Translations under genes and position numbers: made by a program | Shown: in pieces, positions 29,966 through 38,119 of the stretch | Numbering within the stretch: the stretch's first letter is position 1 | How the letters are laid out: each line of letters opens with the position of its first letter | Assembly: GCF_002914585.1 (NCBI RefSeq) | Contig: NZ_PDDM01000022.1 | Location: forward strand, 1 to 64,000 | Reading direction: 5' to 3' | From: Pseudanabaena sp. BC1403 | Lineage (GTDB): Bacteria; Cyanobacteriota; Cyanobacteriia; Pseudanabaenales; Pseudanabaenaceae | Length of the DNA: 64,000 nt | Notes under the pieces: model-generated | What the model was told of the DNA's origin: nothing | Databases searched by the model: none | The model's input: the letters and a program-made list of their open reading frames with translations, nothing else

Positions 29966-30247
29966 ATGCAATACGTTTTAATCATTCATGAGGTTGAGGC
30001 TTATCCAGCTTGGAAAGCCATTTTTGACCAAGCCGCAGACATCAGAAAAACCGCTGGTGAAATCAGCTATCAGTTACTGCGTTACGACAATGACGCAAAT
30101 AACATCGTCCATTTCTCAGAGTGGTCTTCGCTTGATCATGCTCGGCGCTTCTTTGAGTCCAGCGAGTTGGTGGAAATCAGAAAGAAAGCTGGCGTAAAAG
30201 CACCTAACTTTATCTACCTACATGAGATAGAACGCGGCGTGCTATAG
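29966..30247 (+). CDS. Antibiotic biosynthesis monooxygenase-like (ABM fold) protein
   Basis: 93-aa dimeric alpha+beta barrel-like protein. MQYVLIIHEVEAYPAWKAIFDQAADIRK has the pattern of ABM-type folds where a beta strand leads into the xAWKxxFD helix; HFSEWSSLDHARRFFESSEL is the second half. Substrate unknown. It follows the GST gene by about 100 bp, probably in the same TetR-controlled unit, though the hairpin between may attenuate it. Confidence 0.65.
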   Translation: MQYVLIIHEVEAYPAWKAIFDQAADIRKTAGEISYQLLRYDNDANNIVHFSEWSSLDHARRFFESSELVEIRKKAGVKAPNFIYLHEIERGVL

Positions 30248-30273
30248 CTTATAGCGATTGCCGCCCGAACGAA

Positions 30274-30335
30274 CCATAATAAATTTTTGAAAGTATTGCG
30301 AAGCAACACTTTCAAAAATTTATTGGTTCGGGTTT
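30274..30335 (+). repeat. Foldback with core hairpin after the ABM gene
   Basis: CGAACCAATAAATTTTTGAAAG-type arms (GAACCATAATAAATTTTTG, CAAAAATTTATTGGTTC) around GTATTGCGAAGCAAC. Followed by GGGTTTGAGGACAAAGCGTTG, a tail shared with the element near 37364. Confidence 0.65.
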
Positions 30336-30429
30336 GAGGACAAAGCGTTGTAATTTTACGGGCGATCGCTACCAGTCACAAAAAATTTGGTATAGACTAG
30401 TGACTAGATGTTATCAAGGAGCAAAAACT

Positions 30430-30768
30430 ATGATTTTTAAAACTATTTCGCTAGTCGCAACTAGTCTCGTCTCAGCCACTATATTTGCAGCGGCTGGTGC
30501 GATCGCCCAAATTACGCCTGCGCCAACCCTATCCGAACAAACCTTACGTGAAGCTCAACAACAAGAAAGAAGCTCACTTAGTGTCGGTGGCAGCAATCTC
30601 AACTTATTGCAACTAATTAATAATATCAACCTCGCTGGCGGCAAGTCTCCAGACCAGTTTCGCGCTAGTCAAGCTGAATCCTTTGATGAGGCTGTGACCA
30701 ATTTTAGATCTCAACAACGTAAAGACGTGAAAATTTCGATCCCCGCAGCAAATACTCCAGCCAATTAA
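30430..30768 (+). CDS. Exported hypothetical protein
   Basis: 112 aa from the ATG at 30430, which has AAGGAG 8-13 nt upstream (the frame is open from 30334 but that part is poor coding sequence). Residues 1-about 27 are a signal peptide (hydrophobic LVATSLVSATIFAAAGAIAQ). The mature part is about 85 residues, Gln/Ser/Asn-rich with SLSVGGSNLNLLQLINNINL. No family recognised. Followed directly by a very strong hairpin. Confidence 0.7.
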   Translation: MIFKTISLVATSLVSATIFAAAGAIAQITPAPTLSEQTLREAQQQERSSLSVGGSNLNLLQLINNINLAGGKSPDQFRASQAESFDEAVTNFRSQQRKDVKISIPAANTPAN

Positions 30769-30815
30769 AAAGCAAAAAAATAATGGCTACGCCATTATTT
30801 TTTTGCTTTTTAATT
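30763..30815. terminator. Perfect terminator hairpin
   Basis: AATTAAAAAGCAAAAAAATA and its complement form 25-bp arms around TAC, overlapping the stop codon of the exported protein gene. Confidence 0.8.
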
Positions 30816-30840
30816 GGGTTTAATTCTCAACTCATAGTTG

Positions 30841-30884
30841 AAATAAAAAATAGCTAGCACTTAGTGCTAGCTATTTTTTATTTC
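30841..30884 (-). terminator. Terminator of the TPR gene
   Basis: AAATAAAAAATAGCTAGCAC pairs with GTGCTAGCTATTTTTTATTT around TTA; it overlaps the 3' end of the minus-strand TPR gene. Confidence 0.8.
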
Positions 30885-31672
30885 AACGTCAAAAACTTTT
30901 CGAGCGCCGTGACCAAAGAGGGCGGCCAACGACGGATATTCTTTACCCAATTGATATCTCGATAGCGTGGATCGAGGTTTTCCACAGAGACCCAATTACT
31001 CTCCGCTTCACCTTGCTTCTTATCTACCCAAAGCGCCGCAGTCAAAGCAGCACGCACGTCCGTAAAATTCGGATATTTGCGTAATATATTTTTCATCGCC
31101 TTAATTGCTTCATCGCTTTTACCGATCTCGTACAGAGCGATCGCATTATTACCAAAGGCAGTACTAAAGCGCGAATTAACATTCATCGCAATTTGATAAT
31201 CCGCGATCGCCTCTTCCCATTTGCCTAAGCCAGCTTTGGCATTACCACGATTGTTATAGGCTGCCGCATCTTTAGGATCAATTGCTAACACGCGATCATA
31301 ATCCGCGATCGCCTCTTCCCATTTGCCCAAGCTTTCCAAAGCCGCACCGCGATTGAGATAAGGATCGGGGAAATTAGGCGCAAGTTCTACAGATTTGTTA
31401 TAGTCTGCAAGCGCTTCTTGAGGACGATTTTGGCTCATTTTTGAGTTGCCGCGATTGCTCCAACCTGCGGCATTGTCAGGATAGAGCTTGATTAAATCTG
31501 TCCAATAGCCCTCTGCGGCTGGGAATTCACCTGCATCGGTGGCGGTAAAAGCTTTTTTGACCAAGGCATCCAGTTGATTTGATTCGGCTTCGGTAATGTT
31601 GAGTTGAGCTTGCACTGGTGCAGGATTCAAAAGTAAACATAAGGCAAGAAAAAGTGCAAATAGCGATCGCAT
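30878..31672 (-). CDS. Exported TPR-repeat protein
   Basis: 264 aa from ATG 31672, chosen because a clean signal peptide follows (MRSLFALFLALCLLLNPAPVQAQ with a cleavage site at about 20-23); an ATG at 31783 is in frame. The mature protein has about five TPR units (AAGWSNRGNSKMSQNRPQEA, DPYLNRGAALESLGKWEEAI, AAAYNNRGNAKAGLGKWEEA and others). It is probably a lumenal or periplasmic scaffold; chloroplast relatives include PSI/PSII assembly TPR proteins, but orthology is not established. Confidence 0.8.
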   Translation of the reverse strand: MRSLFALFLALCLLLNPAPVQAQLNITEAESNQLDALVKKAFTATDAGEFPAAEGYWTDLIKLYPDNAAGWSNRGNSKMSQNRPQEALADYNKSVELAPNFPDPYLNRGAALESLGKWEEAIADYDRVLAIDPKDAAAYNNRGNAKAGLGKWEEAIADYQIAMNVNSRFSTAFGNNAIALYEIGKSDEAIKAMKNILRKYPNFTDVRAALTAALWVDKKQGEAESNWVSVENLDPRYRDINWVKNIRRWPPSLVTALEKFLTLK

Positions 31673-31786
31673 GAGTATTGAATCCTTGCCAAAAGTGGAG
31701 ATTATTTTTTGTCTTAATATATCAGGCTGAGAGATTAATTGTGTCTTGCTAATTAGGGACTTACGCAAAATAATCGATCCCAAAAA

Positions 31787-31835
31787 TATATCGGCGGGCT
31801 ACGCCCGTCGATATATTTTTGGGTTTTTAATTCCG
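31787..31835 (-). repeat. Hairpin between the DUF4388 gene and the TPR gene
   Basis: CCCAAAAATATATCGGCGGG pairs with CCCGTCGATATATTTTTGGG around CTACG, with one mismatch. Confidence 0.75.
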
Positions 31836-31899
31836 CTGAGATACTTAAACTTTTGGGCACTTTCGGGAATTAGAAACAAACTATTTAAGACAAGCTTAG

Positions 31900-32757
31900 T
31901 TAAGCGTTAGCTTTAATCTTCAGATGACCTAAGAGGTTTTGTAAGAATGCATTGCTCGGAAATGAATTGGAGCTTCCTGATGAGCCTGACATTGACATTT
32001 CAAGATCTTGTTTCTGTGATGGCATCTCTGCTGCGACAAAGGGAACTTCTTCTACTAGTCCCATAGTCATTAGTCGAAAAGCAACTTGTTGGATCTTGTC
32101 AAGCGGCAATTTTAAGTGCTTAGCAATATTCTGAATTGAGACATCTCCTTTAGTAAACTCCCACACCTGCGATTCTAGTTGGTTCAATCGAAATTGGGGC
32201 TTACCAGTGATTGCACTGACAATACCTGAAGACGCTTCTGGAAGCTTATCTAAAAGCATAGTCCAGTCTTTTAAAGCTCGTAAACCAGCTAAGGTCACTT
32301 CACTAGGTGGAGCCTTTAAACCCGTCAATTCCGTAATAGGCGCTACTACTTTAGCGTCAAACTGAAACTGTCCATCTAGCAACTCAAATAGTTTGCAAAC
32401 CTGTTGCAATACCTGCTGACTAAACAACATTTTCAGTTGTTCAGCTTCTAGTAAACCCTGTTCTTTTAGACATAGTCCTGCGGGTTGATCGATGGCGCAT
32501 ACTTCTGTAATACGAGATGCAACTCTAGTACTCACCCATCCCCGTTGCTGAATCATCGACAACAACCCATGTCCATCAAGCCTATCTGCCGCTGCAATAA
32601 TACTTCCTTGTTTAAACCAAATGCGAAATATCTTTCCTGGATACAATGGGTTTTGAGAGCGCTCTTGAATACTTAAACGCCCTGTCTTATTTCCCTGTTC
32701 AATTAAACGAAAGATCTCTGGAAGAGAGAATTCGGATAGATATCCTGAAATAGCCAT
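31900..32757 (-). CDS. DUF4388 (PatA N-terminal-like) protein
   Basis: 285 aa. The N-terminus (GYLSEFSLPEIFRLIEQGNKTGRLSI, split GYLSEFSLPEIFRLIEQG / KTGRLSIQE) is the DUF4388/PatA domain seen in cyanobacterial response regulators for pili and heterocyst patterning; residues about 195-255 look like a winged helix (FTKGDVSIQNIAKHLKLPLDKIQQ). The C-terminus is Ser/Gly-rich and ends with a conserved-looking helix (NAFLQNLLGHLKIK). It is the last gene of the minus-strand GTPase/Roadblock module. Confidence 0.8.
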   Translation of the reverse strand: MAISGYLSEFSLPEIFRLIEQGNKTGRLSIQERSQNPLYPGKIFRIWFKQGSIIAAADRLDGHGLLSMIQQRGWVSTRVASRITEVCAIDQPAGLCLKEQGLLEAEQLKMLFSQQVLQQVCKLFELLDGQFQFDAKVVAPITELTGLKAPPSEVTLAGLRALKDWTMLLDKLPEASSGIVSAITGKPQFRLNQLESQVWEFTKGDVSIQNIAKHLKLPLDKIQQVAFRLMTMGLVEEVPFVAAEMPSQKQDLEMSMSGSSGSSNSFPSNAFLQNLLGHLKIKANA

Positions 32758-32833
32758 GACTTAACTCCTTTGATTATGCAAAAAATCAGAACAAAAGAAA
32801 CAGAATGAAATAGAGTGAAAGACCTAGGACTGC

Positions 32834-33373
32834 TTAGACCAAACAAACTTGCATGGAATGCTGAATCAGGGTAACAATGGCTTGAGCCACTGATGACTGT
32901 TCATTAGCATTAACAGTTATGAACGGAGGTCGGGTTTTAGGGTCGATATACCCTAATGCGATCGCAATGTTTTCTGATTGCCAAGCATTGGGGCAGTCCG
33001 TATGAGTTAGCCCAACAACCATCGGTAACTTTTGCCGTTGATTCATAAAGCTAGCAATTCGACGAGCATATCGAAACTCGGCTGGACGATGCGCTGCAAC
33101 AAGCAAGACGTAAGCATGGGCTTGCTTAATCAAAATATCCCACATGAAGTCAAATCGAGATTGTCCAGGAGTCCCATACAGATGTAGAGCCATTTCTGGA
33201 CCAAACTGCAAGCGCCCGAAGTCAAAGGCAACTGTGGTTTTGGGTTTCAGATCTGCGGTTTCGTCAGTCGCTTGACGGTCAGTATCAACAACTTCAATTT
33301 CGCTAACAGATCTGATAAAGGTAGACTTGCCAGCCCCTACTGGGCCAGTCACAACCAAACGCATGATTTCCAT
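32834..33373 (-). CDS. Small Ras/Arf-like GTPase
   Basis: 179 aa. P-loop GPVGAGKST (residues about 10-18), a switch II GTPGQ (in LYGTPGQSRFDFMWD) where most Ras-like proteins have DxxGQ, and THTD at about 123 in place of NKxD. This resembles the MglA/Gtr-type bacterial GTPases that pair with Roadblock proteins. It starts 108 bp after a Roadblock gene on the same strand. It likely acts as a molecular switch for the module; its output is unknown. Confidence 0.82.
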   Translation of the reverse strand: MEIMRLVVTGPVGAGKSTFIRSVSEIEVVDTDRQATDETADLKPKTTVAFDFGRLQFGPEMALHLYGTPGQSRFDFMWDILIKQAHAYVLLVAAHRPAEFRYARRIASFMNQRQKLPMVVGLTHTDCPNAWQSENIAIALGYIDPKTRPPFITVNANEQSSVAQAIVTLIQHSMQVCLV

Positions 33374-33481
33374 ATAATGTCTCAGTGAATGATTAAAAAG
33401 GCAATGCAGATTAATTAAGAGGTAGGATGCTTAACTTATATCTGCATTACCACCATCATTTACTTAGCATTGATTGAGCCT

Positions 33482-33853
33482 TTACTTTAGAATCTGTTTG
33501 ATTTCTAAAACAATCCGCTTAATTTCCAACATCAAAATCCCCTGTTTTGCCTTTTGATCAGCCAATACTAGAAGTACAGCATCATCGCCACAGCTTGTCA
33601 GAATACCGTAACCTTTGTCGCCTTCAACGAAAATGCGCTCAATACCACCTCTGGCAAGTTCTTGTCCAATTCGTTCGCCAAGAGAAAGCATGGCAGCAGA
33701 CATTGCCGATACTCTTTCTTCATCCATTGCACCTGGCAAGGTCGAAGCCAAGGGTAAACCATCTGGAGTGACAAGTGCTGCACCCTGAACATCGCTGGTT
33801 GCGGATACAAAATTTTGTAGAACAAGACTAAGTTTTTCAGTGTTAATTGCCAC
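33482..33853 (-). CDS. Roadblock/LC7 protein, copy 1
   Basis: 123 aa, the MglB/Roadblock fold that binds and regulates small GTPases as a dimer. The sequence has VQGAALVTPDGLPLAS, ERVSAMSAAMLSLGERIGQE, RIFVEGDKGYGILTSCGDDAVLLVLAD (split) and a C-terminal helix (EIKRIVLEIKQILK). It differs from copy 2 (34840) by one residue (Leu here, Ser there) although the DNA differs at many third positions. The neighbouring GTPase is the probable partner. Confidence 0.92.
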   Translation of the reverse strand: MAINTEKLSLVLQNFVSATSDVQGAALVTPDGLPLASTLPGAMDEERVSAMSAAMLSLGERIGQELARGGIERIFVEGDKGYGILTSCGDDAVLLVLADQKAKQGILMLEIKRIVLEIKQILK

Positions 33854-33910
33854 TATGAAATTCTCCTAATAAATACAAACGTTACACAAAATAATAAAAC
33901 CTATGAAGTC

Positions 33911-34390
33911 TTAAGCGAGGACTTCAAACTCAACAACATCATGGGAACCGCCACGTAGAACTGATTCTGTTTGCTTACCACGAAAACGCTTACCCGTGGC
34001 TTTTTCCAGCACTCCTTGAATGGCTCCCAAAGTGAATGTTAGTTTACGAGGAGAGCCTTGGACTTCGCCAGCAGAGCAAATTGTTTCGCGAGCGTAAACT
34101 GTGATCGTTTCTCCTGCTTCGACAATTTTGTCGATAATGCAAAGTCTTGTGCCATCTTTACCCAATGCTGCCTGAAGCTGCGGAACGACCTCTGCGCCAG
34201 AAACTCCTTTTCCTGTAAGCCCAAGCTGTTCGGCTACTTGCTTACCACGGTTACGACCAGCAGAGATCAAGGCAATCGCTGCGGCTTTTTCCCCTAGAGC
34301 TTCTTCAGTACCCACAACTACTGCTTTGAAGCAAATAATACTGCTGAAATCACCAAGCTCATTACGCACTTGTTCTGCATTATTAGACAT
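33911..34390 (-). CDS. Conserved cyanobacterial protein of unknown function, copy 1
   Basis: 159 aa; family not recognised. It has a central block (AVVVGTEEALGEKAAAIALI, GRNRGKQVAEQLGL) and a C-terminal block (SPRKLTFTLGAIQGVLEK, GKQTESVLRGGSHDVVEFEV). No signal peptide or membrane helix. It precedes Roadblock copy 1 by 57 bp and is about 83% identical to the copy at 35269. Partnership with Roadblock/GTPase is inferred from the duplicated pair. Confidence 0.8.
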   Translation of the reverse strand: MSNNAEQVRNELGDFSSIICFKAVVVGTEEALGEKAAAIALISAGRNRGKQVAEQLGLTGKGVSGAEVVPQLQAALGKDGTRLCIIDKIVEAGETITVYARETICSAGEVQGSPRKLTFTLGAIQGVLEKATGKRFRGKQTESVLRGGSHDVVEFEVLA

Positions 34391-34592
34391 AGTAAAACCT
34401 TAAAAGATAGACATTAAACATTGCTTATGAAATACCTTCTTTTTGAAGGCATCCAAAATCACATCCATACTGACTGACTGCCGCTAGAATCAAAATTCAT
34501 CGCGATTAAACTTATTACCTATATGGAGTTTAACTCCATCCCTTGCTTGACAGGATTTATTAACAGTCCTTTCTTGATCAATCTAAATATAG

Positions 34593-34670
34593 AGGCTATA
34601 GCTAGCTATAAGGTCAAGGGGGACAAAAAAAAGTTGCTATTGTAAAAACTTATCAATCATTTTGAGAAGC
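34593..34670 (-). promoter_or_regulatory. Conserved upstream block, copy 1
   Basis: Reads on the plus strand GGCTATAGCTAGCTATAAGG, then a G run, eight A, and AGTTGCTATTGTAAAAAC, TTATCAATCATTTTGA. The same order is present at 35964-36046. On the minus strand it gives a -35-like TTGACC before the TAGCTAGCTA palindrome. Confidence 0.7.
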
Positions 34671-34689
34671 TTTTACCAATTCCTATAGA

Positions 34690-34787
34690 TACTCCCTTCC
34701 CAGCGAAGAATTAGCATTGCGGAGCTTTACGCCGCAATGCTAATTCTTGGTTTTTGATGTCTATTTCTTTGGTGCGAAGGGAGTACT
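34690..34787. repeat. Foldback element with ACTCCCTTC ends
   Basis: Outer ends ACTCCCTTCCCAGC and (reverse complement) ACTCCCTTCGCACC; inner hairpin AGAATTAGCATTGCGG/CCGCAATGCTAATTCT. Present only in front of copy 1 of the duplicated module, so it may have inserted after the duplication. Confidence 0.65.
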
Positions 34788-34839
34788 TAACAATTTCTGA
34801 TTCTGAGCTTGCCGCTGAGCCTGATAATTGATTCAACGT

Positions 34840-35211
34840 TTATTTCAAAATCTGCTTGATTTCTGAAACAATCCGCTTAATTTCCAACATCAAAATCCCC
34901 TGCTTTGCCTTTTGATCAGCCAATACCAGAAGTACGGCATCATCACCACAGCTTGTCAGAATACCGTAACCTTTGTCGCCTTCAACGAAAATACGCTCAA
35001 TACCACCTCTGGCAAGTTCTTGTCCGATTCTTTCACCGAGAGACAGCATAGCAGCAGACATTGCCGATACTCTTTCTTCATCCATTGCACCTGGTAAGGT
35101 CGAAGCCAAGGGTAAACCATCTGGAGTAACGAGAGCCGCACCCTGAACATCGCTAGTTGCGGATACAAAATTTTGTAGAACGAGACTAAGTTTTTCAGTG
35201 TTAATTGCCAC
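34840..35211 (-). CDS. Roadblock/LC7 protein, copy 2
   Basis: 123 aa, same as the product at 33482 except Ser for Leu in the last helix (EIKRIVSEIKQILK). Roadblock dimers act as GTPase-activating or scaffold proteins. It follows the second copy of the unknown protein by 57 bp, exactly as in copy 1. A single amino-acid change despite many synonymous differences indicates strong purifying selection or gene conversion. Confidence 0.92.
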   Translation of the reverse strand: MAINTEKLSLVLQNFVSATSDVQGAALVTPDGLPLASTLPGAMDEERVSAMSAAMLSLGERIGQELARGGIERIFVEGDKGYGILTSCGDDAVLLVLADQKAKQGILMLEIKRIVSEIKQILK

Positions 35212-35268
35212 TATGAAATTCTCCTAATAAGTACAAATGATACACAAAACAATTAAACCGATGAAGTC

Positions 35269-35745
35269 TTAGGCGAGGACTTCAAACTCAATAACGTCAT
35301 GAGAACCGCCTCGCAGAACTGATTCTGTCTGCTTGCCACGAAGACGTTTGCCAGTGACTTTTTCTAGTACCCCTTGTACTGCTCCCAGAGTAAATGTTAG
35401 TTTGCGAGGAGATCCTTGAGGCTCACCAGCAGAGCAAACTGTTTCACTACAGTAAGCTGAGATCGTTTCTCCCGATTCGACAATTTTGTCGATAATGCAA
35501 AGCTTTGTGCCATCTTTGCCCAATGCTGCCTGAAGAATTGGAACAATTTCCGCGTTAGCAAGACCTTTTCCCTCAAGACCAAGCTGTTCAGCTACTTGCT
35601 TACCACGGTTACGACCAGCAGAAATTAGAGCGATCGCGGCGGCTTTTTCCCCTAGTGCTTCTTCAGTACCCACAACTACTGCTTTGAAGCAAACTATACT
35701 ACTGAAATCACCGAGTTCATTACGCATTTGTGAAGTATTAGACAT
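35269..35745 (-). CDS. Conserved cyanobacterial protein of unknown function, copy 2
   Basis: 158 aa paralogue of the product at 33911. Differences cluster in the central part (EGKGLANAEIVPILQ here, TGKGVSGAEVVPQLQ there) and around the ISAYCSETVCSAG segment, which has one more Cys. C-terminal block is nearly identical. It is the first gene of the module as transcribed. Confidence 0.8.
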   Translation of the reverse strand: MSNTSQMRNELGDFSSIVCFKAVVVGTEEALGEKAAAIALISAGRNRGKQVAEQLGLEGKGLANAEIVPILQAALGKDGTKLCIIDKIVESGETISAYCSETVCSAGEPQGSPRKLTFTLGAVQGVLEKVTGKRLRGKQTESVLRGGSHDVIEFEVLA

Positions 35746-36114
35746 AGTGAAACCTTAATATTTACATTGATGTGTAGGGCATACCTTCATATTGAAAGCA
35801 TCAAAATTACGACTTTAGTGATGTCACTTGTACTCTATTCCCACCAGAAAAATATTCATCGGAAATGTTGATATACAGTGCCCATATCCCCTATATAGAG
35901 TTAGACTCTATCGCCTGCTTGATAAGACTAGCTAGTAGTTTTTTCTTGCGCCACTTACTCTAGTGGCTATAGCTAGCTACAGTGTCAATGGGGATAAAAA
36001 AAAGTTGCTATTATAAAAACTTATCAATCATTTTGATAGAGTCAAATCAATGCTTTTTCTATAGAACTATTGGAATAATCAGGTGCTGCGATAAAAAAAG
36101 TTTGCTTGTGTTGT
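35746..36114. other. Promoter region of module copy 2
   Basis: About 370 bp without a gene; holds the leader hairpin ATAGAGTTAGACTCTAT (35895-35911) and the conserved block at 35964-36046. Confidence 0.65.
35964..36046 (-). promoter_or_regulatory. Conserved upstream block, copy 2
   Basis: Counterpart of 34593-34670, with GGCTATAGCTAGCTACAGTG, an A run and AGTTGCTATTATAAAAAC. On the minus strand TTGACA precedes the palindrome, a likely -35 element. Confidence 0.7.
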
Positions 36115-36213
36115 AAGTACCTATGCAGAAAATTCCCCAAACCCATAAGATTGTGCCCCGCAGGGGCGCAATCTTATGGGTTTGGGTTTGAAATTAATTA
36201 TGTCTATCTACTT
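36115..36213. repeat. Family 2 foldback element (AAGTA-ended), 99 bp
   Basis: Left end AAGTACCTATGCAGAAAATT; right end (reverse complement) AAGTAGATAGACATAATT. Core: CCCAAACCCATAAGATTG and its complement around CCCCGCAGGGG. It ends two bases before the MerR gene's stop codon. Confidence 0.75.
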
Positions 36214-36215
36214 TG

Positions 36216-37145
36216 CTAAGCAAGAAAGTTGTTTCCCTGTAAAATATCAGTTTTAGTAAAATCTGCCCCAGTCAAAATTGCCTCACCAAAATCCACACCT
36301 CGTAAATTTGCACCTGTAAAGTTCACACCCCCTAAATTTGCGGCGGTAAAATTTGCCCCTTCTAAATCTGCACCACTAAGATCAGCTCCGACTAATAATG
36401 CATCGGTAAAGTCAGCTTTTTGCAAGCAAGCTTCACTCATCATTGCACCAGCTAGATTCGCACCAACAAATTTTGTTTCTATCATTGATACCTCACATAA
36501 GTCTGACAACATCAATTTGGCATTAGTAAAATCTGCACCACTCAAATTTGCCCCATTGAGTTTTGCACTGATTAGATTTATTAGTCTAAAGTTCCGTCTC
36601 CCGACTGAATACATATATAAGACTTCTTGACTGCGATCTAAAAACATAGGGCGATCGCACTGAGTCTCTTCTAAATCTATTGAATTAGTAGATGTACTGA
36701 TCAAATTGAGTAGATGGTTTTGCTCAAGTTCTAAATTGGTAGTATCACAATCAGGTAAAACTTCAGCAATTAGATCTAACCGTTGAGAAATATTTTGTCG
36801 TTGAGTCATTAATTCTTGAATTTGCAAATCCAGCTTATCCAGTTTCCGCTTCACCATGAGTTTGAAGGTTGCATAGGGTATGGTATGCAAAGCTTGTAGA
36901 TCCATTAGTTGTTTGATCTCATCAAGAGAAAGTCCAAAAGCTTTGACCCCTTGAATAAATAAAAGGCGCTCCAACGCATCTGTAGAGTAAATTCGGTAGC
37001 CTTGCTCAGTTCGATGAGGTTTGCGCAATAATTCCAGACGTTCGTAATAGCGAATAGTTTGAACAGGAATTTCAACTAAATTACTGAGTTCACCGATTAA
37101 CCAACCACGGGCACGTCCAACTGGATTACTTTCGATTGGTTCCAT
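36216..37145 (-). CDS. MerR-type regulator fused to pentapeptide repeats
   Basis: 309 aa. Residues about 15-125 are a MerR DNA-binding and dimerisation region (LIGELSNLVEIPVQTIRYYE, LLRKPHRTEQGYRIY, FGLSLDEIKQLMDL, then a coiled coil). Residues about 185-305 are pentapeptide repeats of the A(D/N)LxG type (LNGANLSGADFTNAKL, LVGADLSGADLEGANF). MerR proteins usually end in a small ligand-binding domain; here a right-handed quadrilateral beta-helix takes its place. It probably binds DNA with a pentapeptide sensor or protein-interaction tail. Confidence 0.88.
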   Translation of the reverse strand: MEPIESNPVGRARGWLIGELSNLVEIPVQTIRYYERLELLRKPHRTEQGYRIYSTDALERLLFIQGVKAFGLSLDEIKQLMDLQALHTIPYATFKLMVKRKLDKLDLQIQELMTQRQNISQRLDLIAEVLPDCDTTNLELEQNHLLNLISTSTNSIDLEETQCDRPMFLDRSQEVLYMYSVGRRNFRLINLISAKLNGANLSGADFTNAKLMLSDLCEVSMIETKFVGANLAGAMMSEACLQKADFTDALLVGADLSGADLEGANFTAANLGGVNFTGANLRGVDFGEAILTGADFTKTDILQGNNFLA

Positions 37146-37218
37146 GACTTATAGAAACTATTTTAGGAACTAATGATATACATAAACATTTTACTACGAT
37201 ATCGCGATCGCTACTTTA

Positions 37219-37319
37219 TACCAAAGCACAAAGTGGCGTAGCCACTTTGTGCTTTTAAAACCCTTACAGGGTTTGCTTTTTAATTCACAGAAGTGTTGTC
37301 ACACTTTTGTGAATTGGTA
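37219..37319. mobile_element. MITE family 1, copy b (101 bp, TTA target duplication)
   Basis: TACCAAAGCACAAAGTGG to AATTGGTA, flanked by TTA at 37216-37218 and 37320-37322. Three hairpins inside: CACAAAGTGGC/GCCACTTTGTG, AACCCTTACAGGGTTT and AATTCACAGAAGTGT/ACACTTTTGTGAATT. Best-preserved complete copy. Confidence 0.9.
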
Positions 37320-37363
37320 TTAGTGAAGAGATACAGCAGTTTTTAATCGAAGAACCCATAAGA

Positions 37364-37401
37364 AAAGCTTTAAAAGCATTGCTTTTAAAGCTTTTCTTGG
37401 T
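37364..37401 (-). terminator. Hairpin after the second amidohydrolase gene
   Basis: AGAAAAGCTTTAAAAGCA pairs with TGCTTTTAAAGCTTTTCT, flanked by CCCATA and TTGGTTTGGGG. It lies 30 bp downstream of the operon's last gene. Confidence 0.65.
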
Positions 37402-37432
37402 TTGGGGTTGAGCGCAAAGCACTGTCAAAGAC

Positions 37433-38119
37433 CTATGCGATCGCCATTGTTTGAGGTGCTAATACCGAAATCACCGCATCAGCGTTTGCAGTCCAACCGA
37501 TGATCCCGCCTTGAGCGCGAAGCATTTCAATCGTTGAAGATTTAAATTCTGGAAAATAGCTCGCAGTTCCATCTTCGATTAGTAAGCATTCATAACCGCG
37601 ATCGTTGGCTTCACGCATTGTTGTTTGGACACATACTTCCGTAGTAACACCAGTAAAGAGAAGATGAGTAATCTGTTCTTTTTGCAAGATATCCTCTAAG
37701 CTTGTTCGACAAAATGCACCTTTCCCTGGTTTGACAATCACAATTTCATTATCTAGAGGCGTAAGCTCAGGAATAATATTATTGCCATCTTCCCCAACGA
37801 TTAGGATTCGCCCCATTGTTCCTTGGTCACCAATTTTAGGATTGCCTTGACCTCGATTGAGCTTTGAGGGAGGACAGTCTGATAAGTCAGGAGAATGAGC
37901 CTCGATGGTGTGAATTACAGGCAAATCTAGCGATCGGAAAGTTTCTAATAGACTCTTAACTGTTGGCACGATGCTCTGTAATTGTGTGACATCATTACCT
38001 AGTGCATCACCAAAACCACCATGTTCTAGGAAATCACGTTGCATATCGATAATGACTAGAGCTATTTTGCTCTCAGTTGGCAATTCATAATCATAAGGTT
38101 GAGCCGCGATCGCAGGCAT
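37433..38119 (-). CDS. Isochorismatase-fold cysteine hydrolase (triuret hydrolase-like)
   Basis: 228 aa. The catalytic triad of the family is visible: Asp25 (VIIDMQRDF), Lys130 (VKPGKGAF) and Cys163 ([19 protein letters not shown]). The same architecture as the upstream BiuH-like enzyme but with [12 protein letters not shown] and [14 protein letters not shown], features I associate with triuret/ureidoacrylate-type hydrolases. It is the last gene of a four-gene operon with the ABC ATPase, cupin and BiuH-like gene, so an amide or ureide substrate is likely. Exact substrate is not determined. Confidence 0.8.

Follow-up and report, generated by a model that had tools for sequence, protein, structure and literature searches.

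The Ras-like GTPase MglA and its Roadblock partner MglB are encoded side by side in Myxococcus and Thermus, and in the conservons of Actinobacteria (CvnA-D / Mfp, MglA Group 2) a multi-gene operon couples an MglA-type GTPase and a Roadblock protein to a protein that provides the input (PMC4316618). The Roadblock dimer is a platform that regulates Ras-like GTPases (PMC4316618, PMC10933270), and PATAN genes have been remarked on earlier as neighbours of both MglA and MglB (PMC4316618, citing Makarova 2006). According to the same survey, the input to a bacterial Ras-like GTPase has been established for few systems, namely Frz/RomR in the case of MglA and histidine kinases in that of the conservons; among the MglA groups, its text names Cyanobacteria for Group 5 only (PMC4316618). 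Here we describe a locus in a 64,000-nucleotide stretch of Pseudanabaena sp. BC1403 (contig NZ_PDDM01000022.1; hereafter the window), in which two gene pairs, each encoding a protein with a predicted V4R fold (V) and a Roadblock protein (R), are followed by the genes of an MglA-type GTPase (G) and a PATAN (DUF4388) protein (P).

We favour, with a probability of roughly 60%, the reading that this locus is a ligand- or gas-sensing G-protein switch of the MglA type with interchangeable sensors. Its input side is interchangeable, with R, G and usually P remaining constant, since a protoglobin takes or shares the place of V in many cyanobacteria and in Thermus. The module differs from the conservons, whose input consists of the histidine kinase CvnA and of CvnC: here the input would be a soluble V4R-fold protein or a protoglobin, and a PATAN protein is added. 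In the window, no CvnA histidine kinase or CvnC adjoins the module, which is flanked by a tetratricopeptide repeat (TPR) protein on one side and a MerR-pentapeptide protein on the other; a histidine kinase does lie upstream in some relatives.

We regard the module as a new variant of MglA/Roadblock systems with interchangeable soluble sensors. Among the papers listed by a literature search, judged by title and start of abstract and with most subscription papers outside its scope, none describes a GTPase/Roadblock module with a V4R-fold protein or a protoglobin; "V4R" is absent from the main text of PMC4316618, whose sections 15 and 18 name no globin partner. The operon is conserved and occurs in both Cyanobacteriota and Deinococcota, and it points directly to two candidate inputs, a protoglobin and a V4R-fold protein, which trade or share places; signal input to a bacterial Roadblock GTPase can be put to the test with a set of four small proteins. 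In addition, a single bacterial cluster here unites a Ras-like GTPase and its Roadblock with a predicted Bet3/TRAPPC3-fold protein, three kinds of part whose relatives in eukaryotes and Asgard archaea serve in research on how vesicle traffic originated.

Layout of the array and exchange of its putative input genes

The six genes lie on the minus strand in the transcription order V_B-R_B-V_A-R_A-G-P (31900-35745). V_B (35269-35745, 158 aa) is an open reading frame (ORF) whose V4R/TRAPPC3 fold is predicted by transfer from the model of copy A and from the family alignment; it is followed by R_B (34840-35211, 123 aa, GTG start), a Roadblock/LC7 protein matching PF03259 at 67.1 bits (cut-off 23). 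V_A (33911-34390, 159 aa), predicted to share the fold on the basis of AlphaFold2, Foldseek and VIA-align, precedes R_A (33482-33853, 123 aa, GTG start; PF03259 at 67.2 bits, same cut-off). As stated in the preliminary description of this DNA, the two pairs have equal spacing, both V-R gaps measuring 57 bp; they do not, however, surround the GTPase gene as it had proposed, for G (32834-33373, alternative start at 33364), identified by PF03029, PF00071 and its G-motifs, lies downstream of both. P (31900-32757) matches PF14332 at 94.5 bits (cut-off 25).

The Roadblock copies, described earlier as one residue apart with many synonymous differences, indeed differ by L116S only (1/123 residues) plus 22 synonymous changes, corresponding to a synonymous divergence (dS) of 0.29. 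The V proteins diverge as well, by 14.5% and thus a little less than the 17% first given: V_A and V_B are identical in 136 of 159 aligned columns, with 22 substitutions and one gap. R_A and R_B are the only PF03259 matches at E 0.001 in the 5.5-Mb window genome. The duplication is not confined to one assembly, as a second species, Pseudanabaena sp. UWO311 (L038), has the same V-R-V-R-G-P array; I3-5_bin-680 (L039) and M085S1SP2A07QC (L040) carry a single-copy V-R-G-P. Given the 22 synonymous differences between the two Roadblock genes and the identical order in UWO311, an assembly artefact is an unlikely source of the array.

Among 386 cyanobacterial genomes sampled across the phylum, 25 gave a match to V (one of them as fragments alone) and 36 a match to G at E 1e-10. 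For the analysis of gene neighbourhoods we retained 44 V loci with enough flank, excluding short, broken or repeated contigs (L007, L027/L031, L043, L046, L050, L055, L067, L069 and repeats), and 20 G loci chosen for having no V alongside (G284, near G251, and two short G385 fragments were excluded). R, G and P all occur in the same cluster at 36 of the 44 V loci, and at least one of them at 38. A protoglobin belongs to the cluster of 23/44 V loci (in L132 as a fragment) and of 19/20 G loci without adjacent V. These counts come from translated searches; ORF picking gave less (34/44 four-gene loci; globin in 22/44 and 18/20), with genes missed in L131, L132, L138, L171, L177 and L184.

The globin belongs to PF11563 in the two members scanned, and a distant form (26% identity) is found at L172. 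Its residue H101, invariant in all 40 aligned ORFs, would be the heme ligand. The nearest solved relative of the L115 globin is Tlr1989 (PDB 8h17; E 1.9e-80), which is identical over 184/184 residues to the globin of a Glob-R-G-P operon (L174, genome G089). Tlr1989 represents the alternative sensor, of which one query found no homologue in the window genome; the same query has matches in 13 of 26 genomes of the genus, one of them a fragment. Among genomes of the genus, 18 of the 19 that encode G also have V or globin, compared with none of the seven without G (Fisher p 1.2e-5, uncorrected for relatedness). In one of them, G394, a window-type GTPase (95%) occurs together with the second GTPase type of the genus (71%), at C22 and C260, so that two module lineages coexist there.

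Some operons carry both predicted sensors and two Roadblocks, in the order V-R-globin-R-G-P (L106, L133) or globin-R-V-R-G-P (L049). The Roadblock copies are identical at 122/123 residues in L106, 121/123 in L133 and 123/123 in L049, with dS values of 1.29 in L106 and 1.23 in L133; in all five two-Roadblock operons seen, identity amounts to 121-123 of 123 residues, even between V-side and globin-side copies. Because these copies are near-identical, at dS above 1.2 in L106 and L133, the Roadblock does not differ by sensor. In a tree of 60 ORF-picked Roadblocks, the sensor label needs nine changes, at least five of which are forced by well-supported branches.

The association extends to Deinococcota, where seven of eight Deinococcus V records (H8 excluded) and two of four Thermus GTPase records were read. 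All seven Deinococcus plasmid loci have G-R-V, each with a preceding gene; among the four preceding genes scanned, three gave a weak winged-helix match and none gave DUF4388. On both Thermus plasmids, DUF4388-G occurs with a Roadblock and a protoglobin. V is therefore linked with the GTPase in members of two phyla, and is not a housekeeping protein without a GTPase link, one of the two outcomes that would have refuted the preliminary description. HD-type phosphohydrolase genes follow V on three Deinococcus plasmids (L194, L195, L199), and EAL and HD-GYP genes follow the module in T. brockianus; these neighbouring genes, of cyclic di-GMP type, hint at a different output in Deinococcota. The module on Thermus brockianus pTB1 (L198 4539-6644) also places three genes of the protoglobin family, of which one is a weak match (E 8.7e-6), around a single Roadblock.

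Predicted fold of V and parts of the core

The AlphaFold2 model of V_A, built from a 21-sequence alignment, has a predicted local distance difference test (pLDDT) score of 79.4, a predicted template modelling (pTM) score of 0.75 and the topology HHH-EE-H-EE (H, helix; E, strand), the helices packing against a sheet of four strands as in the V4R/TRAPPC3 (Bet3) superfamily. Foldseek matched the model to PoxR/MopR/Bet3/TRAPPC3 structures (E down to 3.8e-6, TMq 0.68). VIA-align, in which ranks within 1 Z unit count as tied, gave Z scores of 10.0-15.8 over 123-144 residues with PoxR, MopR, DmpR, TRAPP subunits, Thor TRAPPC3, MJ1460, BcsD and YslB. The V4R domains of the aromatic sensors PoxR/MopR/DmpR reached 14.0-15.8, Bet3/TRAPPC3, other Bet3-fold TRAPP subunits and Thorarchaeal TRAPPC3 11.6-14.5, MJ1460 12.1-13.4 and BcsD 10.0-11.8; H-NOX reached 8.4-8.8.

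Two GxxxG glycine pairs, in helices alpha2 and alpha5, are described as common to V4R and Bet3 (Podar et al., PMC2253512). In V, the pairs G45/G49 and G122/G126 are invariant in 45/45 cyanobacterial rows and in 15/15 rows that include seven Deinococcus sequences. When the Deinococcus members were included, hhalign placed both glycine helices of V in register with the profile of tandem V4R genes from this group of cyanobacterial genomes (E 0.0059), and without them the first glycine helix alone (E 0.02). In three V4R match rows (E 0.045-0.16), the match spans the second glycine helix. V thus resembles prokaryotic V4R/TRAPPC3 (Bet3) proteins in its predicted fold and glycine pairs, but it scores under the Pfam V4R cut-off, is linked through its gene neighbourhood to a bacterial Ras-like GTPase and, in the 45-row alignment, does not have their four-cysteine zinc site (C20 and C105 are invariant there and C84 nearly so). 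That site is present in Thor TRAPPC3 and PoxR and replaced in mouse TRAPPC3, hence not universal (PMC10933270). Since the sequence support is weak and below the Pfam cut-off, we predict that V is a V4R-fold protein and not a member of PF02830.

Other identities for V were considered. Scans of single V sequences returned no NCBIfam family and, in Pfam, FMN_red at E 0.097 alone (copy A). Weak matches of individual relatives to ALOG, DUF7317, DciA and others were set aside because the predicted fold points elsewhere, and the best matches of profile searches in the PDB, uL13 (E 0.25, alignment A2) and SENP8 (E 0.28, alignment A6), were taken as chance. The window genome separately encodes a different V4R system, with tandem true V4R-domain genes of ~226 and ~222 aa (C2:170613-172260, L092); V4R matches are present in 51 of 58 relatives.

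Turning to the core, the PDGL motif of the Roadblock has an invariant Asp in 52 rows and Gly in at least 90% of them, and this Asp-Gly pair is a trait of MglB coupled to MglA Groups 2-5 (PMC4316618). G scores 59.4 bits against PF03029 (cut-off 27) and 24.6 bits against PF00071 Ras (cut-off 21.6). GTPGQ in G3 and a Thr replacing the Group 1 Arg in G2 mark MglA Groups 2-5 (PMC4316618), and G has YGTPGQ as its G3 motif in 56/56 rows, together with an invariant T46-T47 and no Group 1 Arg there, which by our own reading of the motif would be the G2 positions. Its G4 motif is [TS][HY]xD (His in 55/56 rows, Tyr in 1/56, Lys in 0/56) and the Group 5 consensus [NT]KxD appears in none of the 56 rows; a Group 5 label would therefore not be safe. 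For P, the alignment shows a conserved C-terminal tail, and a winged-helix-like stretch at ~200-240 gave weak matches below cut-off; a Pfam scan found no receiver domain. Its AlphaFold model is weak (pLDDT 64.0), with no Foldseek match at E 0.001.

Proposed switch and history of its duplicated input

In the switch that we propose, the soluble V would bind a small hydrophobic or tetrapyrrole-like ligand, and its ligand state would change how the Roadblock dimer handles the nucleotide cycle of G, as suggested by MglA/MglB and the conservons. The globin would, as a gas sensor, set the Roadblock platform or act on G directly, and V may do likewise. G would then hand its state to P, which may act on pilus motors or, through its winged-helix-like part, on DNA or transcription. 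We place P at the output because in Synechocystis PATAN-REC proteins are binding partners of the pilus motor PilB1 (PMC9090330), and by this analogy a motility output through PATAN is plausible; in Myxococcus, the protoglobin-bearing kinase NmpU has been linked to type IV pilus control (PMC6211767). In the window, two V4R-fold proteins that have diverged from each other would make up the input side, each accompanied by one of the near-identical Roadblocks, and the duplication most likely adds a second input or raises the sensor/Roadblock dose on one switch.

Several observations weigh against this proposal. V is solitary at 6 of the 44 V loci, one of the 20 G loci has neither predicted sensor, and two Deinococcus plasmids carry G and R without an annotated adjacent sensor. 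The near-identity of V-side and globin-side Roadblocks can also mean that the sensors make contact with G or P instead of R. On the tree of Roadblocks, V labels and globin labels are intermixed, yet they are still clustered by descent (0 of 500 shuffles as low), with bootstrap support unsettled. Moreover, guanine specificity of G is not certain given its [TS][HY]xD motif. As to the fold of V, the best score against Pfam V4R (PF02830) among 45 members scanned is 14.3 bits, below the gathering cut-off of 31 bits; seven of the 45 touch this family, with a best E of 0.045, and eight match the unrelated ALOG model as weakly (best E 0.046), while two match DUF7317 (best E 0.0021). Searches of PDB sequence profiles with the V alignments gave no V4R match, and the hhalign probability against cyanobacterial V4R is 6.3% with the Deinococcus members and 2.3% without them.

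We estimated divergences from Nei-Gojobori counts with Jukes-Cantor correction, values above ~1 being rough. In UWO311, the upstream flank of the near copy matches that of the window near copy; since these flanks agree, the array probably arose once. Beyond this near-type flank, however, from roughly where the conserved upstream block begins, the coding part of the UWO311 near copy resembles the far copy of its own genome, a pattern suggestive of gene conversion between the two V-R copies of this strain (L038 4110-6905). V_A is the odd one out in the window, with a dS of 0.545 and a nonsynonymous divergence (dN) of 0.101 between V_A and V_B, as compared with 0.223 and 0.014 between V_B and the UWO311 far copy. 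Gene conversion had been suggested for checking, and the answer varies with the array. Simple conversion as the cause of Roadblock identity is ruled out for L106 and L133 (121-122/123 residues equal at dS 1.2-1.3), and partial conversion is possible in the window Roadblock pair, because its proportion of synonymous differences (22/~90 sites) is below that of V (47/~120; Fisher p 0.037).

The preliminary description also held that the Roadblock must fit one conserved partner while the V proteins specialise. In the window/UWO311 set, dN/dS is 0.014 and 0.028 for the Roadblock pairs, 0.03 for G, 0.18 for P and 0.19 for V_A/V_B. Among ten relatives in another clade, considering only pairs with dS 0.3-2, the medians are 0.027 for R (17 pairs), 0.036 for G (34), 0.080 for V (19, ranging from 0.05 to 0.15) and 0.099 for P (6). 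In both sets, judging by these rates, R and G form a rigid core and V and P the looser ends, and to this extent the idea stands. Specialisation of V_A and V_B does not follow from this comparison, since 0.19 hardly exceeds the 0.06-0.18 found for V genes between different genomes of the window's own clade.

Low Roadblock divergence seems to be largely a property of the family, because the Roadblocks of the other clade are also slow (median 0.027), and we see no need for a Roadblock specially locked by duplication. Some extra constraint may act within arrays, given that dN/dS is 0.06-0.09 (six pairs) when the window/UWO311 Roadblocks are compared with those of L039 and L040, which have one copy each, and so above the 0.014 of the pair. 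Together with the gene conversion in UWO311 and a V_A/V_B ratio at the edge of its own clade's range, this family-wide slowness would suit a dosage event or a neutral tandem duplication with no functional split. We give this reading a real chance, if somewhat short of even, and it is compatible with a sensory switch. It accommodates less easily the substitutions in 22 of 159 V columns (plus one gap) and a V_A/V_B ratio above that of the 19 V pairs in the other clade; furthermore, V_A appears to be maintained, since its frame is open and dN/dS is well below 1.

Polarity switches, TRAPP and the flanking DNA

A broader version of the sensory switch would be a bacterial plug-in system for G proteins: soluble sensors unrelated to each other, one a heme globin and the other of the Bet3/V4R fold, would drive the same Roadblock-GTPase-PATAN core, and the Bet3-fold form would be, by ancestry or by convergence, a counterpart of TRAPP-Rab in one operon. 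We put this forward tentatively, as doubtful. The TRAPP parallel is attractive as a resemblance of parts only, because operons with the globin as sole sensor do without V. For comparison, GTPase genes of MK-D1 are reported to lie generally outside operons with Roadblock, longin or TRAPPC3 genes (PMC10933270).

The preliminary description was right about one conserved GTPase/Roadblock set and a linked PATAN protein. The likeness to an MglA/MglB polarity switch that it noted holds for the side-by-side GTPase and Roadblock genes, and through PATAN the two may share a link to type IV pilus control; it fails at the predicted sensor genes, at the PATAN gene within the operon and at the Group 1 trait TVPGQ. 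A true MglA/MglB-like switch for gliding or phototaxis, with V as an accessory polarity factor, is in our view improbable. The MglA-type GTPase with its Roadblock, the binding of PilB1 by PATAN-REC proteins mentioned above, and five T2SSE-family and five DUF4388 matches in the window genome are in line with it. However, the operon includes predicted sensor genes, P has no receiver domain in the Pfam scan, G does not have the Group 1 G3 motif TVPGQ, and G was not found in seven of the 26 genus genomes, one of which is just 76% complete.

The TRAPP core is built of Bet3-fold and longin-fold subunits, and PDB titles show Bet3, Trs31/Trs33, Bet5, Trs23 and sedlin together. Least likely, we believe, is a TRAPP-like exchange machine in which V, structural and not a sensor, would form with the platform-fold R a composite guanine nucleotide exchange factor (GEF) for G: TRAPP complexes are GEFs for Rab1/Rab11 (PMC10933270) and V aligns to TRAPP subunits and Thor TRAPPC3 at the Z scores given above, but many operons carry globin without V, which therefore is no obligatory GEF subunit, and the best fold matches are the ligand-sensor domains PoxR/MopR (Z 14.8-15.8, ranks within 1 Z being tied).

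Upstream of copy A, a conserved block (34500-34660, minus strand) contains a 14-bp palindrome, perfect in this copy, and a hairpin/palindrome with 7-bp arms; the block upstream of copy B (35880-36055, minus strand) has the same elements. This common upstream block, pointed out in the first reading of the DNA, is real and is also located 5' of V in UWO311, M085S1SP2A07QC and I3-5_bin-680. Across six related sequences, 97.6% of the hairpin cells are paired, two pairs show double changes, and 3 of 500 shuffles score as high. We consider the block a candidate operator or leader hairpin. Rfam gave 16 matches in 30000-38000, all under gathering scores and mostly of microRNA type on hairpins, which we treated as chance. 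Long intergenic inverted repeats at 30760-30890, 31780-31830, 34700-34785 and 36136-36186 are likely genome repeat elements.

Just upstream of the module, a gene at 36216-37145 encodes a MerR regulator fused to pentapeptide repeats, which is found there in UWO311 (89%) and M085S1SP2A07QC (87%) as well. The mycobacterial Mfp conservon likewise adjoins a pentapeptide protein. MfpA and MfpB are both named in PMC9769811. At 8/44 V loci and 4/20 G loci (L110, L111, L112, L114, L115, L116, L123 and L127; L177, L182, L187 and L188), the module is preceded by a histidine kinase gene belonging to a single sequence cluster, of which the one member scanned matched HisKA_3; a LuxR-type response regulator mostly follows the kinase. 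Finally, a DnaG-type primase gene comes after the globin gene in L110, L111, L114 and L127.

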